A stretch of DNA of 44,655 nt, taken from assembly GCA_009840285.1 (NCBI GenBank), contig VXOF01000094.1:1-44655 (forward strand). The letters are read 5' to 3'. Of the stretch, positions 25,508 through 43,529 are shown one piece after another. The notes beneath the pieces are model-generated. The model was not told the origin of the DNA and ran no database searches. It was given only the letters and a program-made list of their open reading frames with translations. The stretch's first letter is position 1; every line of letters starts with the position of its first letter. A program made the position numbers and the translations under genes. This DNA comes from Nitrospira sp. SB0662_bin_26. Its GTDB lineage: Bacteria > Nitrospirota > Nitrospiria > Nitrospirales > UBA8639.

Positions 25508-26794
25508 ATGACTCCGAAAAAGAAAACGCCCACGAGGAAATCCCCGAGGCGGTCCAAGCCTGACGTCAAGGCCGTCCTTCGCGAAAGAACGCGGGAAGTC
25601 GAAGTGCTGTACCGGATCAGTGAGTCGATCAGCAGCACGCTCGATTTGGAAGCCGTGCTCAAACAGATTGTCGAGGTTGTGGTCGAAGTGACGAAAGCTG
25701 ATTCCTGTTTATTGTATCTCGTCTCGGAGAATCGGGATGAACTCGTCTTGCGATCATCCAAAAATCCCCATCCCAAACTCATCGGCCGGATTTCCGTGGG
25801 GTTGGGAGAGGGGATTACGGGCTGGGTGGCCCAGGAAAGGGTGCCGGTGGTCATTCCTCGTCACGCGAGCGATGATCCGCGGTTTAAGTTATTTCACAAT
25901 CTGCCGGAAGACCGGTACCAGGCGTTCGTCTCGCTTCCTGTGGTGACCAAGGGCAATATGATCGGGGTCATTAACGTGCAACACAAACGGGCGAGGCGGT
26001 ATCAGGACGCCGAGCTGGCGCTGTTGTCGACCATGGCAAACCAGGTCGGGGGCGCCATTGAGAACGCTCGCTTGTATGATGAAATGAAGCGGCAAACGTT
26101 ACAACTGGAGACCCTGTCCCAGGTTTCGGAAACCGTCGCTTCCAACCGCGTGATCGAGGAAGTTCTGCAATTGATCGTGATGACGACGGCGCAGATGATG
26201 GATTCGACGATCTGTTCGCTGATGTTGGTTGACGGGGAGAACCAACGGTTGCGTATTGCGGCGACCCAGAGTCTGAGCGAAGCCTATCGCCGGAAACCGC
26301 CGCTCAAGATCGGCCAGAGTATCAGCGGGCGGGCGGTCAAGGAACAACGGCCGATTTACGTGTCCGACGTGAAGAAGGAGAAAGAGTTCTTTTACCAGGA
26401 TCTGGCCAAACGGGAGTCGTTGTGCTCGCTGTTGTCGGTACCCATGATGAGCAAGGAAAAGGTTATCGGCGTGCTCAATACCTATACCTCCACGTTGCAT
26501 ACGTTTGACGACAAGGAAATAAAAATCATGCAGGCCATAGCCAACCAGGCGGCGGTGGCGATTGAACATACTCGTCTCATGGAAAAATCATTCGAAATGC
26601 AGGAAGCCCTGACTGTCAGGAAACTTGTCGAACGAGCCAAGGGTTACCTCATGCATTCCCGCAAATTGTCGGAAGCCGATGCGTTCAGGTTGCTCCAGCG
26701 TCAAAGCATGAACATGCGAAAATCCATGCGGGAGATTGCCGAAGCCATCATTCTGGCCGGAGAATTGGACGGTGGATCCATGGATCAGCAGTGA
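25508..26794 (+). CDS. Double-GAF ANTAR-domain regulator (putative RNA-binding antiterminator)
   Basis: Codes for 428 residues. A basic N-terminus (K-K-K-T-P-T-R-K-S-P-R-R) is followed by GAF domain 1 (about 40-185), GAF domain 2 (about 210-355) and a C-terminal ANTAR domain (about 368-420). The ANTAR part carries V-R-K-L-V-E-R-A-K-G-Y-L-M and E-A-D-A-F-R-L-L-Q-R-Q-S-M. ANTAR domains bind twin RNA hairpins with hexanucleotide loops and stop intrinsic terminators from forming. There is no kinase or receiver domain, so signal input is presumably a ligand or partner sensed by the GAFs. The next gene, nadE, has just such a terminator in its leader. Start ATG follows GGGGAATCTTGAG. Confidence 0.88.
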   Translation: MTPKKKTPTRKSPRRSKPDVKAVLRERTREVEVLYRISESISSTLDLEAVLKQIVEVVVEVTKADSCLLYLVSENRDELVLRSSKNPHPKLIGRISVGLGEGITGWVAQERVPVVIPRHASDDPRFKLFHNLPEDRYQAFVSLPVVTKGNMIGVINVQHKRARRYQDAELALLSTMANQVGGAIENARLYDEMKRQTLQLETLSQVSETVASNRVIEEVLQLIVMTTAQMMDSTICSLMLVDGENQRLRIAATQSLSEAYRRKPPLKIGQSISGRAVKEQRPIYVSDVKKEKEFFYQDLAKRESLCSLLSVPMMSKEKVIGVLNTYTSTLHTFDDKEIKIMQAIANQAAVAIEHTRLMEKSFEMQEALTVRKLVERAKGYLMHSRKLSEADAFRLLQRQSMNMRKSMREIAEAIILAGELDGGSMDQQ

Positions 26795-26822
26795 GCATCG
26801 ATCAGTGGTCCATCCTGTTCCC

Positions 26823-26852
26823 TTGACAGGCCATCCGAATCGCTGGTACAAG
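26823..26852 (+). promoter_or_regulatory. nadE: Candidate promoter of the nadE leader
   Basis: A perfect -35 TTGACA (26823-26828), an 18-nt spacer and TACAAG (26847-26852), preceded by TG at -15/-14 (extended -10). Transcription would begin near 26859, giving a leader of about 77 nt before the nadE ATG that contains both alternative hairpins described separately. It starts 28 bases after the stop codon of the GAF-ANTAR gene. Confidence 0.5.
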
Positions 26853-26887
26853 CTCAAGAGACGACTCATATATGCTTGACGGTTGTC

Positions 26888-26903
26888 GGGACAAAGGCGT
26901 CCT
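26888..26903 (+). promoter_or_regulatory. ANTAR-type hairpin (P2-like) with AAAGGC hexaloop
   Basis: GGGAC (26888-26892) pairs with GTCCT (26899-26903; outermost pair G-U) around the six-base loop AAAGGC. Loop position 1 is A and position 4 is G, the consensus of ANTAR target hairpins. The 3' strand of the stem is part of the left arm of the following terminator, so the two structures exclude each other. A second hairpin with an A1/G4 hexaloop (P1), expected 1-16 nt upstream, was looked for and not found. Confidence 0.5.
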
Positions 26904-26932
26904 CCCCGGAAGGGAAGAGGGCGTTTTTTTTT
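26897..26932 (+). terminator. Intrinsic terminator/attenuator directly before nadE
   Basis: GCGTCCTC-CCC (26897-26907), a GGAA tetraloop (26908-26911) and GGG-AA-GAGGGCGT (26912-26924) form an 11-bp stem with a two-base AA bulge and two G-U pairs. Nine T residues follow (26924-26932). The nadE ATG is three bases after the T-run, so any transcript that reaches nadE must pass this signal. An alternative stem GACG ... CGTC (26878-26901, enclosing TTGT-CGGG-ACAA) would also compete with it. Confidence 0.85.
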
Positions 26933-26935
26933 GCG

Positions 26936-28714
26936 ATGCGAACTTGCCGAATTGCCATGGTTCAAATGAATCCCGTCGTGGGCGACGTGGATGGGAACGT
27001 GCGTGCGATAGGCAAATGGGTGAAATCCGCTCGTCAGGATGGAGCGGATATCGTCGTCTTCCCGGAATTGGCCATCACCGGTTATCCACCGGAAGATCTG
27101 GTCTTACGTCCGAGTTTTCTCCGCGACACGGCTCATGCTCTCCAATGGTTGACGACTCAGTGTCGGGACCTCACCGTGATCGTCGGATTTCTTGAAGAGG
27201 GAGGAAGGACCCGTCCGCGGGAAGGGGTATCCTTCGTCGTTCCCTCTGGGCACCGGCAGGTATTCAATGCGGCCGCGGTGATTCATAACCGACGGGTCGC
27301 GGCCACCTGTCAAAAAACGTTCTTGCCAAATTACGGGGTGTTTGACGAAAGCCGGTATTTTTCGCCTGGCCAAAAAGCCTTGGTCTGCCAAATCCGGGGA
27401 GTGCGGTTCGGCGTGAACATTTGTGAGGATATCTGGTACGCCGGTGGGCCTACCCGCGATCAGGTAGCCGTCGGCGGCGCGCAGTTGATCCTGAATATCA
27501 ACGCCTCCCCCTATCACGTGGGCAAGGTCAGAGCGCGGCAACGCATGTTGGCGGAGCGGGCCAAGCAGAATAACGTGGTGGTGAGTTATACCAACATGGT
27601 CGGAGGACAGGACGAAGTCGTCTTCGATGGCAACAGTATGATCGTCGATCGAATGGGAACGGTCGTCACGCGGGCCGGAGCTTTTGAAGAAGAGCTGCTG
27701 GTGGCCGACCTGTCTTTCGATGAGGAAGCGCGTCCGGCGAATCGAAAAACACGGGTTGGGCAACAGTATCCTGTTAAGCGAGTCAGACTGTCTTCGGTGG
27801 AGCGACGGAAACCGAAAAAGCCGGTGCCGTTGAAAAATCGAGACTTGCCGCACGATGTGGAAGAAATCTATCAGGCTCTGGTGACGGGGGTTCGCGACTA
27901 CGTGAGGAAGAACGGTTTTCGGCACGTGCTAGTCGCCGTCAGTGGAGGGATCGATTCGGCCTTGACGGCGGTGATTGCCGCCGATGCCCTCGGTTCCGAC
28001 CGGGTGACGGGGGTGTTCATGCCCTCACCGTTTACCTCGCGGGAAAGCCGCAGCGACGCCAGAGCCTTGATGAAGGCTCTCAACGTCGAGTTATTGACCC
28101 TTTCGATTACACGTCTCTGGAAACAATACGTCCAGGCCTTGTCTCCAACGTTCGGAAAACGCGCGTCCGATGTCACGGAAGAAAATCTCCAGGCGCGTAT
28201 CCGTGGCACCCTTGTCATGGCCCTGTCCAACAAGTTCGGCCACTTGGTCCTGACCACCGGCAACAAGAGCGAAATGAGCGTCGGGTATGCCACCTTGTAT
28301 GGAGATATGGCCGGCGGTTTTGCCGTGATCAAGGACGTCCCCAAAATCCTGGTTTATGACCTGGCCCGGCATCGGAACTTGAAGGCCGTAGATGCCCATG
28401 GCAAGGGTGTGATTCCTCAGCGGGTCATCGACCGCGCGCCATCGGCCGAGCTCAAGCCCGGGCAAACCGACCAGGACGCCTTGCCGCCCTATGAAGTCCT
28501 TGACCCCATCCTGGAAGCGTACGTCGAACAAGAACGTTCTCTTCAAGAAATCGCCGGCAAAGGTTTTCCTTTGCAAACCATCAAGCGCGTGATGGCCATG
28601 GTGGACCGCAGTGAATATAAACGTCGTCAGGCTCCGATCGGGATCAAAATCACGCAAAAAGCACTGGGGAAGGATCGGCGGATGCCGATCACCAATCGAT
28701 ACGTCAAGCGTTGA
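26936..28714 (+). CDS. nadE: Glutamine-dependent NAD+ synthetase
   Basis: Codes for 592 residues. The N-terminal nitrilase-fold glutaminase shows the triad glutamate in F-P-E-L-A-I-T-G-Y-P-P (about 44), lysine in K-T-F-L-P-N-Y (about 126) and cysteine in V-N-I-C-E-D-I-W (about 162). The C-terminal ATP-pyrophosphatase domain has S-G-G-I-D-S-A-L (about 335-342). It amidates deamido-NAD to NAD using glutamine nitrogen. M-R-T-C-R-I-A-M-V-Q-M-N-P-V-V-G-D fits the family start. No ribosome-binding site lies between the T-run and the ATG; GAGG in the terminator stem is too far (about 15 nt). An in-frame TTG at 26876 is an unlikely alternative. Confidence 0.93.
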   Translation: MRTCRIAMVQMNPVVGDVDGNVRAIGKWVKSARQDGADIVVFPELAITGYPPEDLVLRPSFLRDTAHALQWLTTQCRDLTVIVGFLEEGGRTRPREGVSFVVPSGHRQVFNAAAVIHNRRVAATCQKTFLPNYGVFDESRYFSPGQKALVCQIRGVRFGVNICEDIWYAGGPTRDQVAVGGAQLILNINASPYHVGKVRARQRMLAERAKQNNVVVSYTNMVGGQDEVVFDGNSMIVDRMGTVVTRAGAFEEELLVADLSFDEEARPANRKTRVGQQYPVKRVRLSSVERRKPKKPVPLKNRDLPHDVEEIYQALVTGVRDYVRKNGFRHVLVAVSGGIDSALTAVIAADALGSDRVTGVFMPSPFTSRESRSDARALMKALNVELLTLSITRLWKQYVQALSPTFGKRASDVTEENLQARIRGTLVMALSNKFGHLVLTTGNKSEMSVGYATLYGDMAGGFAVIKDVPKILVYDLARHRNLKAVDAHGKGVIPQRVIDRAPSAELKPGQTDQDALPPYEVLDPILEAYVEQERSLQEIAGKGFPLQTIKRVMAMVDRSEYKRRQAPIGIKITQKALGKDRRMPITNRYVKR

Positions 28715-28785: not shown

Positions 28786-31509
28786 GTGAATCAGGAACAC
28801 ATGGAACAAACAGCGGATTTGTCTCAATCGGGTGCGCCCTCCACGCAAGCCGTTCTCGATGCGCGCCGTGAAGGCATGCTCGGGCGATTGCGCGAAGGGG
28901 CGTCCGGGACGGAAGTCGTCTCGGATTTTACCTCCCTCGTGGATACGGTCCTGATCGGCAGATATCGAAGCGTGATGAGGCAGCGGAGCGGCGATGCGCC
29001 CTCGGGCATGCAGCACTGTTGCCTGGTGGCCGTGGGGGGATACGGTCGACGTGAACTGGCTCCATATTCCGATATCGACGTCATGATGCTCTATCGCGTC
29101 GGCGGTGGCACGGTCGTCCAAGATCTCTCCAGGCAGATCTTTCATCATTTATGGGATTTGGGCTTTCAGGTGGGTCATAGTGTCCGGTCGATTCACGATT
29201 GCATGGTCGTGGCGGAGGGGGATTTGTCGGCCAAAACCGCGTTGATGGAGTCACGGTTTTTAGTCGGCAACCCGGTCGTCTTTCAAGAATTTCAGCGACG
29301 GTTTGCCAAGCGCGTGCTGGGAAGACGAGTAGGGAATTTCATCCGCGAGAAACTCGAAGAGCGGGAACAGGACTATGCCAAATTCGGAGAGACCGTGTTT
29401 CTCCTGGAACCGAATGTCAAGAAAAGCAAGGGGGGGTTAAGAGACGTTCACTTGCTGCAATGGGTCGGCATGGCCCGGTACCAGGCCGTCACGTTGCAGG
29501 AGTTGGTCGACCGTGGAGTCTTGGCGCATCAGGATTATACGGCTTTGCTCGAAGCGAGAGAGTTTCTGTTCAAAGTGCGTGCCTTGCTCCATTTGGGCGC
29601 GGGTCGCGCCCAGGAAATTTTGTCGTTCGACGAACAAGTGCGCATGGCCGAGGAGTTCGGTTATCGCGATGAATCGCATCTGCTGGGTGTGGAACAGTTC
29701 ATGCAGCAATACTATCGCCTCACTACCGGCATTCATCAACGTGCGATGCGATTCGTGGAGCGTGCAGATTCCACAAATCTCTGGACTCGCCTCAGGCGAC
29801 TGTGGCCGGCTCCGTTGATCGACGGCTTTTTTCAAACGGTTGGCGGGAGGTTGTCCATCCATGACGACAAGCTCATGCAGGTCCTTGATGATCCGGAGCA
29901 TCTCTTGAGCCTCTTTCAGGTCGCACAAAAACAAGGAGTGCCGATCGACGGCCGGGTGCTGGAAGAGATTCACCGTCACATGGAAGGCATGCCCGACCGC
30001 CTGTTCGCGACCCCATCCGTAAGCCGGCGGTTTCGCGAATTGTTGTCCGGCCCCAAGGCGGTTGCCGAAACTTTGATGTTGATGCATCAGGCTCGGGTTC
30101 TGGAAAAACTCGTTCCCGCTTTTGGCCGTGTTCGTGGACTCATGCAATTTAATCAATACCACAAATATACGGTGGATGAGCATAGCCTGCTGGCCGTCAA
30201 GAAAGTTGAGTCTTTGGGAAAACAGTCCGGAATGTTGGGAAAGGTGTACCAGGAGATTGAGGCGAAGGACCTCCTGCATTTGGCCGTGCTGCTTCATGAC
30301 GTGGGGAAAGGCCTTCCTGAAGATCACAGCGAAGTCGGGAAAAAGATTGCCCAGGAGGTGTCCGTCAGATTGGGACTCGACGAACAGGAATCCCAAACCC
30401 TTGAGTTCCTCGTCCATGCACACCTGCTGATGGCGAATACGGCCCTACGACGGGACCCCCATGATGAAAAAGTACGGCTGACGTTCTGTCGAGCCGTGGG
30501 CAGTCCCGAACGATTGAAACAACTCCTGCTCTTGACTGCCGCGGATATTGCCGCGGTGGGCCCGGACATGCTGACCAAATGGAAAGAAGCGCTGCTGATT
30601 GAACTCTATGACTTGGCGCTTCCTGAAGTGTCCGGGGCCAGTGAACGGGTGGAATCCGCGATTGACGTCGAGCACGTCACCGACGACGTCCTGGCGGCTT
30701 GGGAACGGCAGTCTCCCCGTGTCGAAGCCGGCGGACAATCAGCCGGGAGCCACGGCATTCCGAATCGTGAGTGGGTCAAGGGCCAATTGGAAGCCTTTCC
30801 GGTGCGCTACCTGTCCGGAACGGCCAGGGATCGAATGATCGCCCACCTTTCCGCCATCCGGTCTTTGACCCCGGAACGTCCCAGGGTCGAATCCACCTAC
30901 AACCGCGAACTGAAGGTGTGTGAGTATTCGCTCATTGCCTTCGATTCCGTGGCGTCCGGGATATTTATGAAGATGACCGGCGTGCTGGCCGCGAAAGGCC
31001 TGCGGGTGCTTGATGCTCAGATTGTCACAAGACCGGACGGCATCGTGCTGGATACGTTCCTGGTTAAGGATCATGATTTCAGCGGCGAACCCACGTCGGC
31101 CCGGTTGGAAAAAGTGGGGAAGGCCATTGTCAGTGTGTTGCAGGGAGAACTCTCGATCGAGGCGTTTATGGCACGGAATCGACGCGTGTCTTTTCGCAGC
31201 CACATGCCGATCCGCCGGCACCGTACCGAAGTCAAAATCCACAATGAGATGTCGGACCACTTTACCGTGATCGAGGTGTTTGCCGATGACAAGCAGGGCC
31301 TGCTGCATGAGATCGCCGATACTCTGTATGATCTCGAACTCTCGGTGCATTCGGCCAGAATCGGGACGCGCCTGGATCAAGTCGTGGACGTGTTTTACGT
31401 CACCGAACGAAACGGCAACAAGGTTCAGGACGCCCGGACATGCGAATCCATTCAAACAAGGCTGCAAGATCAGGTCGATCGTTTCCTGGATGCCGACGAT
31501 TCACGGTGA
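28786..31509 (+). CDS. glnD: PII uridylyltransferase / uridylyl-removing enzyme
   Basis: Codes for 907 residues from GTG 28786. The nucleotidyltransferase motif G-G-Y-G-R-R-E-L-A-P-Y-S-D-I-D is at about 84-98, G-G-L-R-D-V-H follows, the HD domain has H-D-V-G-K-G at about 504, and two C-terminal ACT domains lie at about 715-790 and 825-900. GlnD senses glutamine and uridylylates PII proteins. GGGAG at 28774-28778 supports 28786; ATG 28801 with AGGA is a near alternative, and the frame is open to a TTG at 28711 overlapping nadE. Linkage to glutamine-consuming nadE fits a nitrogen-status module. Confidence 0.92.
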   Translation: MNQEHMEQTADLSQSGAPSTQAVLDARREGMLGRLREGASGTEVVSDFTSLVDTVLIGRYRSVMRQRSGDAPSGMQHCCLVAVGGYGRRELAPYSDIDVMMLYRVGGGTVVQDLSRQIFHHLWDLGFQVGHSVRSIHDCMVVAEGDLSAKTALMESRFLVGNPVVFQEFQRRFAKRVLGRRVGNFIREKLEEREQDYAKFGETVFLLEPNVKKSKGGLRDVHLLQWVGMARYQAVTLQELVDRGVLAHQDYTALLEAREFLFKVRALLHLGAGRAQEILSFDEQVRMAEEFGYRDESHLLGVEQFMQQYYRLTTGIHQRAMRFVERADSTNLWTRLRRLWPAPLIDGFFQTVGGRLSIHDDKLMQVLDDPEHLLSLFQVAQKQGVPIDGRVLEEIHRHMEGMPDRLFATPSVSRRFRELLSGPKAVAETLMLMHQARVLEKLVPAFGRVRGLMQFNQYHKYTVDEHSLLAVKKVESLGKQSGMLGKVYQEIEAKDLLHLAVLLHDVGKGLPEDHSEVGKKIAQEVSVRLGLDEQESQTLEFLVHAHLLMANTALRRDPHDEKVRLTFCRAVGSPERLKQLLLLTAADIAAVGPDMLTKWKEALLIELYDLALPEVSGASERVESAIDVEHVTDDVLAAWERQSPRVEAGGQSAGSHGIPNREWVKGQLEAFPVRYLSGTARDRMIAHLSAIRSLTPERPRVESTYNRELKVCEYSLIAFDSVASGIFMKMTGVLAAKGLRVLDAQIVTRPDGIVLDTFLVKDHDFSGEPTSARLEKVGKAIVSVLQGELSIEAFMARNRRVSFRSHMPIRRHRTEVKIHNEMSDHFTVIEVFADDKQGLLHEIADTLYDLELSVHSARIGTRLDQVVDVFYVTERNGNKVQDARTCESIQTRLQDQVDRFLDADDSR

Positions 31510-43067: not shown

Positions 43068-43529
43068 TCAAGGGGCTTTTGCCGCTCGTTGCGCCTGGGA
43101 TTTTTTGGAAAAAGTCATGGACCGCAGGCTCTTCATGGGAATGCGGATCTCACCGAAATCGGATTGTCCGATCAGCGTGACTTCCTTCGCCAAGGGGAAT
43201 TCACCGGATTTGCCGTTTAACAGCTTGATGGTCAGGGCTTGGCGACCTTTAGCCGGGTGATCGGGTTTCACCAGGATTTTCGCGATTTGTTGAAATTTGA
43301 CGTTAATGGTGGCGGCGCCGTGTTTAACCGGAACGTGCCTGATTTCATGTGGGACAAAGGTCGTCTCATCGATTTTTTCTTCCCAGTATAACCGGGCATT
43401 GGAGACCGATAGTTGGATGCCTTCGGCATCGGTGGTTTCAGCCGTAAACACATTGCTCTGGGCCAGGACACAGGTGGGAAACACGATCGTCAAGGCCAGA
43501 AGTAAAGCTGAGAGATGAGGGCGAATCAT
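43068..43529 (-). CDS. Exported protein of unknown function in the tonB-exbBD operon
   Basis: Codes for 153 residues. A signal peptide (about 5-23, V-L-A-Q after it) is followed by a mainly beta protein. Near its C-terminus L-I-G-Q-S-D-F-G-E-I-R-I-P-M-K-S-L-R-S-M-T-F resembles the short G-x-x-x-I-P-x-x-x-I-x-S-I-x-F strand motif of small Sm-like or SH3-like barrels, followed by a basic tail. I do not recognise a family. GGAGAA precedes the ATG. Its place between tonB and exbB implies a role with the TonB system, e.g. ligand binding or complex assembly. Confidence 0.7.
   Translation of the reverse strand: MIRPHLSALLLALTIVFPTCVLAQSNVFTAETTDAEGIQLSVSNARLYWEEKIDETTFVPHEIRHVPVKHGAATINVKFQQIAKILVKPDHPAKGRQALTIKLLNGKSGEFPLAKEVTLIGQSDFGEIRIPMKSLRSMTFSKKSQAQRAAKAP

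Follow-up and report, generated by a model that had tools for sequence, protein, structure and literature searches.

A predicted ANTAR-dependent attenuator in the nadE leader of a Nitrospirales bacterium and its place in a predicted nitrogen regulon of the order

The NasR/nasF leader of Klebsiella, like the NasT systems, places nitrogen assimilation genes under attenuation by an ANTAR protein, and the nitrate sensor of NasR is a NIT domain. How nitrogen assimilation is controlled in Nitrospira and its relatives is little known, and these bacteria are genetically hard to manipulate. In the eut leaders of Enterococcus faecalis the EutV target is a hairpin with an A1/G4 hexaloop whose 3′ arm is also the left arm of a terminator (PMC3369931, PMC8934654). 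Both hairpins of the eut leader are required in vivo, and a single hexaloop has been proposed as the minimal motif (PMC8934654). Predicted ANTAR regulons with several leaders per genome have been described in other phyla, in Desulfotomaculum and Pelobacter (PMC3369931) and in actinobacteria (PMC8164766), with nitrogen functions among the Desulfotomaculum and Pelobacter targets. The main text of PMC3369931 names neither Nitrospirae nor nadE, and our literature search found no paper that ties ANTAR or antitermination to Nitrospira regulation or to NAD synthetase.

Here we describe the leader of nadE, the gene for glutamine-dependent NAD synthetase, in the window, by which we mean the whole 44,655-nucleotide stretch of DNA that was analyzed. 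Like the eut leaders, it has an A1/G4 hexaloop hairpin built into a terminator; as with NasR, the predicted targets are nitrogen assimilation genes; and as in the predicted regulons of other phyla, there are several ANTAR-type leaders per genome. The regulator differs from EutV in having a GAF-GAF-ANTAR architecture without a receiver domain, and from NasR in its two GAF domains. Unlike eut, the targets are nadE and nitrogen genes, the window copy has no P1 hairpin, and the distance between P1 and P2 varies among relatives; unlike the NasR regulon, this one includes nadE-glnD, amtB, cyanase and a nitrite transporter. We consider it highly probable that the nadE leader attenuates transcription in an ANTAR-dependent manner and is served by the same protein that would run a nitrogen regulon across the order, and the earlier reading of the locus as an ANTAR-controlled attenuator is largely supported.

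The window derives from a bacterium of the order Nitrospirales. Among named organisms, the closest relatives of its ANTAR gene occur in Nitrospirales and Nitrospira genomes of the same genus, at 93-96% protein identity, and with identities of about 70% the protein family extends as far as Nitrospira moscoviensis, Ca. N. defluvii and N. lenta. A spacer of 141 nt (26795-26935) separates the ANTAR gene from the nadE ATG at 26936, and glnD comes next (Table 1). A glnD gene comes after nadE at 23 of 30 nadE loci, in the window's genus and much of its family, and the two genes are probably co-transcribed.

Table 1. Features of the nadE locus in the window, and further elements of the same genome
Feature	Position	Strand	Basis or remarks
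GAF-GAF-ANTAR protein, 428 aa, presumed antiterminator	25508..26794	+	Pfam GAF_2, GAF, ANTAR
nadE promoter: TTGACA 26823-26828, 18-nt gap, extended -10 TG-G-TACAAG 26844-26852	26823..26852	+	sequence; same-genus conservation
P1-equivalent region: GACGAC...GTTGTC long-loop hairpin, not an A1/G4 hexaloop	26860..26887	+	fold -6.4 kcal/mol, z -1.9
P2 candidate antiterminator hairpin GGGAC-AAAGGC-GTCCU, A1/G4 hexaloop 26893-26898	26888..26903	+	fold, conservation, R1 model
Intrinsic terminator: stem 26893-26928, U tract to 26932	26893..26932	+	fold; covariation
nadE, glutamine-dependent NAD synthetase, presumed regulated gene	26936..28714	+	NAD_synthase + CN_hydrolase
glnD, PII uridylyltransferase	28801..31509	+	GlnD_UR_UTase, HD, ACT
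Element before sigma-54 activator	L239:343-392 = G000:C80:53742-53791		P2 7-nt loop AATGAAC, canonical P1
Element before porin-like gene	own genome C17		P1 loop starts with G; gene without Pfam match, function from sequence only
Element before porin-amtB pair	own genome C109		P2 loop starts with G; gene names from near-identical G010 counterpart

The preliminary description had placed a TTGACA/extended -10 promoter, an A1/G4 hexaloop hairpin (AAAGGC) and a strong terminator in a 141-nt spacer between a GAF-ANTAR gene and nadE with glnD. All of these are present: the spacer sequence and Pfam bear out the arrangement of genes, sequence and same-genus conservation the promoter, and sequence and folding the hairpin. 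Folding likewise confirms a terminator that shares the 3′ strand of P2 and ends three bases before the nadE ATG. The extended -10, TGGTACAAG, lies 18 nt past TTGACA, and both TTGACA and TTGGTACAAG are kept in same-genus leaders. A generic promoter and terminator scan with strict patterns flagged neither signal of the nadE leader, the promoter because its -10 is weak, and both were therefore judged by sequence, folding and conservation. P2 folds at -5.6 kcal/mol and the terminator at -20.2 kcal/mol (z -3.0), and GTCC(T) is common to the P2 3′ arm and the terminator left arm. When both strands of the window are scanned, this is the sole case of a hexaloop hairpin that overlaps a terminator, and 40 dinucleotide shuffles yield none. 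Our covariance model of P2 plus terminator (R1) scores the leader at 54.9 bits (E 7e-11), the window row being a member of its seed; a second, weak match in the window (43351-43378, E 0.08) was taken as chance. The leader thus carries the P2 of the Ramesh 2012 definition, an A1/G4 hexaloop on a stem of at least 3 bp overlapping an intrinsic terminator, and also the single A1/G4 hexaloop hairpin competing with a terminator of the NAR 2022 redefinition. At 26917-26938 only 3 nt, and no Shine-Dalgarno sequence, lie between a U9 tract and the nadE start; many relatives have a similar layout, and translation initiation of nadE may be unusual.

The gene directly upstream encodes an ANTAR protein, as had been stated: its PF03861 match has an E value of 3e-19 and 68.8 bits against a curated cut-off of 27.3, and it is the only such match in the genome, adjacent to nadE. 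We aligned the domain with the PDB proteins Rv1626, EutV and NasR using HMMER, setting the EutV numbering by matching the residues named in PMC8934654. In the 2022 structure of EutV, Tyr164 stacks with G4 of the hexaloop, Arg142, Lys149 and Glu160 contact it, and Met172, Asn173, Arg175 and Arg177 also matter (PMC8934654). R371, K372, K378, E389, F393, M401, N402 and R404 of the window protein align with EutV R142, K143, K149, E160, Y164, M172, N173 and R175; seven of these are identical and the eighth, Y164, is replaced by Phe (F393). EutV R168 and R177 correspond to Q397 and S406. Most of the EutV residues that contact G4 and the RNA backbone are thus kept.

The leader was compared with the nadE leaders of 98 relatives, most of which have an orthologue of the ANTAR protein at 60-96% identity. 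Almost every member of family f1, and many members of families f2 and f3, have P2 and the terminator ahead of nadE, so that hexaloop and terminator, whose lack of conservation in orthologous spacers would have spoken against the earlier reading, prove to be conserved across the order. Across 40 leaders the hairpin letters GGACAAnGGCGTCC are conserved at 97-100% at most positions, as are positions 2-6 of the P2 left arm, while each of the 25 bases upstream of the hairpin is conserved at about 30-55% and the flanks at about 40%. Covariation in the aligned spacers, the check proposed with that reading, is found in part. In the terminator, 7 of 12 pairs have double-sided changes (39 leaders) and 94.6% of cells are paired, compared with 50-61% when the arms are slid; P1 covaries as well, in relatives that have it. 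No covariation was detected in the P2 stem of the nadE leaders, because that stem is nearly invariant.

A terminator directly after the ANTAR gene, and a good one, might simply end that gene's transcript, or attenuate nadE independently of ANTAR, with the hexaloop incidental. The nadE leader of G009 (L042), in which promoter and P2 are gone and only the right arm of the terminator and the U tract are left, fits this, the terminator remnant having outlived P2. However, where the ANTAR gene is elsewhere or has been split off by inserted sequence (G001, G005, G011, G013 and G008), promoter and element remain with nadE, and the element therefore belongs to nadE as its leader and does not form the end of the ANTAR gene. 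Moreover, the left arm GGAC of P2 is excluded from the terminator stem by folding, so the terminator alone fails to explain why that arm is conserved. Similar hexaloop-terminators also stand before unrelated nitrogen genes, and loss of the element tracks loss of the ANTAR gene, as described below. We regard a plain or ANTAR-independent terminator as very unlikely. In six f2 nadE leaders (L125, L127, L131, L133, L140 and L149) the hexaloops mostly start with G and there are two tandem terminators, one overlapping each hairpin.

Element and regulator appear and vanish together, as a search with the R1 model shows. Exactly one ANTAR-domain protein is encoded in 83 of the 98 genomes and none in the other 15; R1 matches (E ≤0.01) were found in 81 of the 83 and in 0 of the 15. 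The Fisher p of 7e-16 takes no account of phylogeny, and the 15 genomes represent few independent losses: they comprise family f4 and some members of genus g12, in which the rest carry gene and element alike. The completeness of the genomes also varies. Some R1 seed sequences were drawn from the tested genomes, although the choice of seed excluded no ANTAR-less genome. Of the two ANTAR genomes without a match, G002 has lost its nadE element and G058 has a divergent relative of the element in its leader. Points against ANTAR control of nadE are that G002 and G007 retain an ANTAR gene after losing the element at nadE, and that no more than a terminator remnant survives in G009. Single exact-motif matches in ANTAR-less genomes (L076, L081) lack a terminator and seem fortuitous.

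Sampled across the phylum, 54 genomes have an R1 match at E 0.001, and 53 of these carry an ANTAR gene. The remaining genome, G222, encodes no ANTAR protein and contains an orphan dual hairpin and terminator (L264, G222:C17:157078-157124, minus strand) after a ureD-like gene; this element is probably a relict. Two genomes, G248 and G261, have an ANTAR gene and no detected element, and like G222 they count against the proposed link. Outside the order, an ANTAR-nadE gene pair occurs in a class-level relative (L275, G278) with no RNA element detected between the genes, and the pairing of the genes may be older than the leader.

The window's genus is a variant in which the P1 hexaloop has been lost at nadE while P2, terminator and promoter remain. 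Most other lineages have, upstream of P2 and usually 20-45 nt away, another hexaloop hairpin, P1, with loops such as AACGAC, AATGAC, AACGGC and AAGGGC and stems that include GGGAAC/GTTTCC, GGAGAC/GTCTCC, CAGGC/GCCTG and GGCGAC/GTTGCC. This stem covaries strongly: 92% of cells are paired versus 38-57% when slid, a percentage biased upward by preselection of candidates for at least 3 inner pairs, and 36 cells are doubly changed versus 10 in shuffles, pair-type variety being much less affected. The dual motif of Ramesh 2012, with its upstream P1 hexaloop, occurs in the majority of other genera and, within the window's own genome, in the other three elements, with some loop variants, and is lacking at the window's nadE. 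A canonical P1 (A or G at position 1, G at 4) is absent before nadE from the window and from ten same-genus leaders, in keeping with the earlier report that no upstream P1 hairpin could be found; the sole P1-like match in the genus (L006) was rejected as lying upstream of the promoter. In its place is a long-loop hairpin (GACGAC/GNTGTT) with 82% of cells paired in the genus, one pair mismatched in 10 of 11 leaders, and weak covariation.

A weak, genus-specific hairpin between promoter and P2 could suggest that something else acts on the leader, such as a riboswitch-like sensor, an RNA thermometer or another antiterminator. This is extremely unlikely, as an Rfam search of the leader at gathering and permissive thresholds returned no relevant family, and the structure is that of an ANTAR target, its presence following that of the ANTAR gene. 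The preliminary description had left a choice between a variant single-hairpin target and a coincidence; a variant fits the genus, given its dual-hairpin relatives, and coincidence is excluded in practice. A different possibility is that the regulon is real and that the nadE copy in this genus is decaying, an ANTAR-unresponsive, constitutive partial terminator now that P1 is gone. All 11 genus members lack a canonical P1, the eut system needs both hairpins in vivo (PMC8934654), and in the sister genomes G002, G007 and G009 the element is gone or damaged. Yet P2 (with its G4 and left arm), promoter and terminator are nearly unchanged in those 11 genomes while P1 diverged, and a single hexaloop is the minimal motif under the NAR 2022 redefinition (PMC8934654). 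We think such decay improbable, and prefer a working attenuator. The genus with the decayed P1 offers a natural test of single-hexaloop antitermination, a point on which the 2022 structure and the in vivo findings for eut differ.

Our model of this attenuator is as follows. Transcription would be expected to start near 26859-26861, about 75 nt 5′ of the nadE ATG. In the default state the transcript would fold into the conserved strong terminator and transcription would stop just before nadE. When the GAF-GAF-ANTAR protein is active, its ANTAR domain would bind the P2 hexaloop hairpin, as EutV and NasR bind theirs. Bound P2 would block the terminator, whose left arm is the P2 3′ arm, and RNA polymerase would then read into nadE and probably glnD, again by analogy with EutV and NasR. 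The targets suggest that the signal, received through the GAF domains, is probably nitrogen shortage. With P1 decayed in the window's genus, P2 would have to work by itself or together with a non-canonical hairpin upstream.

The element is predicted to belong to an order-wide ANTAR regulon of nitrogen-acquisition genes that includes nadE(-glnD). In family f3 (Nitrospira proper), dual hairpins with terminators stand before formate-nitrite transporter genes followed by cyanase, often as two successive elements, and elements also precede amtB, a nirA-like nitrite reductase gene, porin genes and a sensor-like gene; in f1 they precede a formate-nitrite transporter gene and an NMT1-like gene (nitrate/cyanate transport type). 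The window's own genome has three further elements, each with a P1 hexaloop hairpin (Table 1). ANTAR control of nadE and glnD, as first suggested, is supported by conservation, covariation and co-occurrence as part of this predicted regulon, with binding and antitermination inferred by analogy with EutV and NasR.

Such a regulon gives a concrete regulator, an RNA code and a list of targets in a group whose cultured species include Ca. N. defluvii and N. lenta, and it ties NAD synthetase, a user of glutamine, to nitrogen control. The full proposal, that one orphan GAF-GAF-ANTAR antiterminator runs a lineage-wide nitrogen regulon of nitrite oxidizers and couples NAD synthesis to nitrogen status, and that in one genus a single hexaloop, without P1, is enough for the nadE leader to work, seems to us about evenly balanced between right and wrong. 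With nitrite as sole nitrogen source, N. moscoviensis highly expresses cyanase and two of its three ammonium transporters (PMC6606698), a pattern compatible with the predicted ANTAR control; at the locus around the ANTAR gene of this species, no element was found adjacent. Four Nitrospira operons of formate-nitrite transporter and cyanase genes have two hexaloop-terminators in series (L064:1500-1656, L066:1359-1515, L077:1469-1636 and L080:1391-1665).
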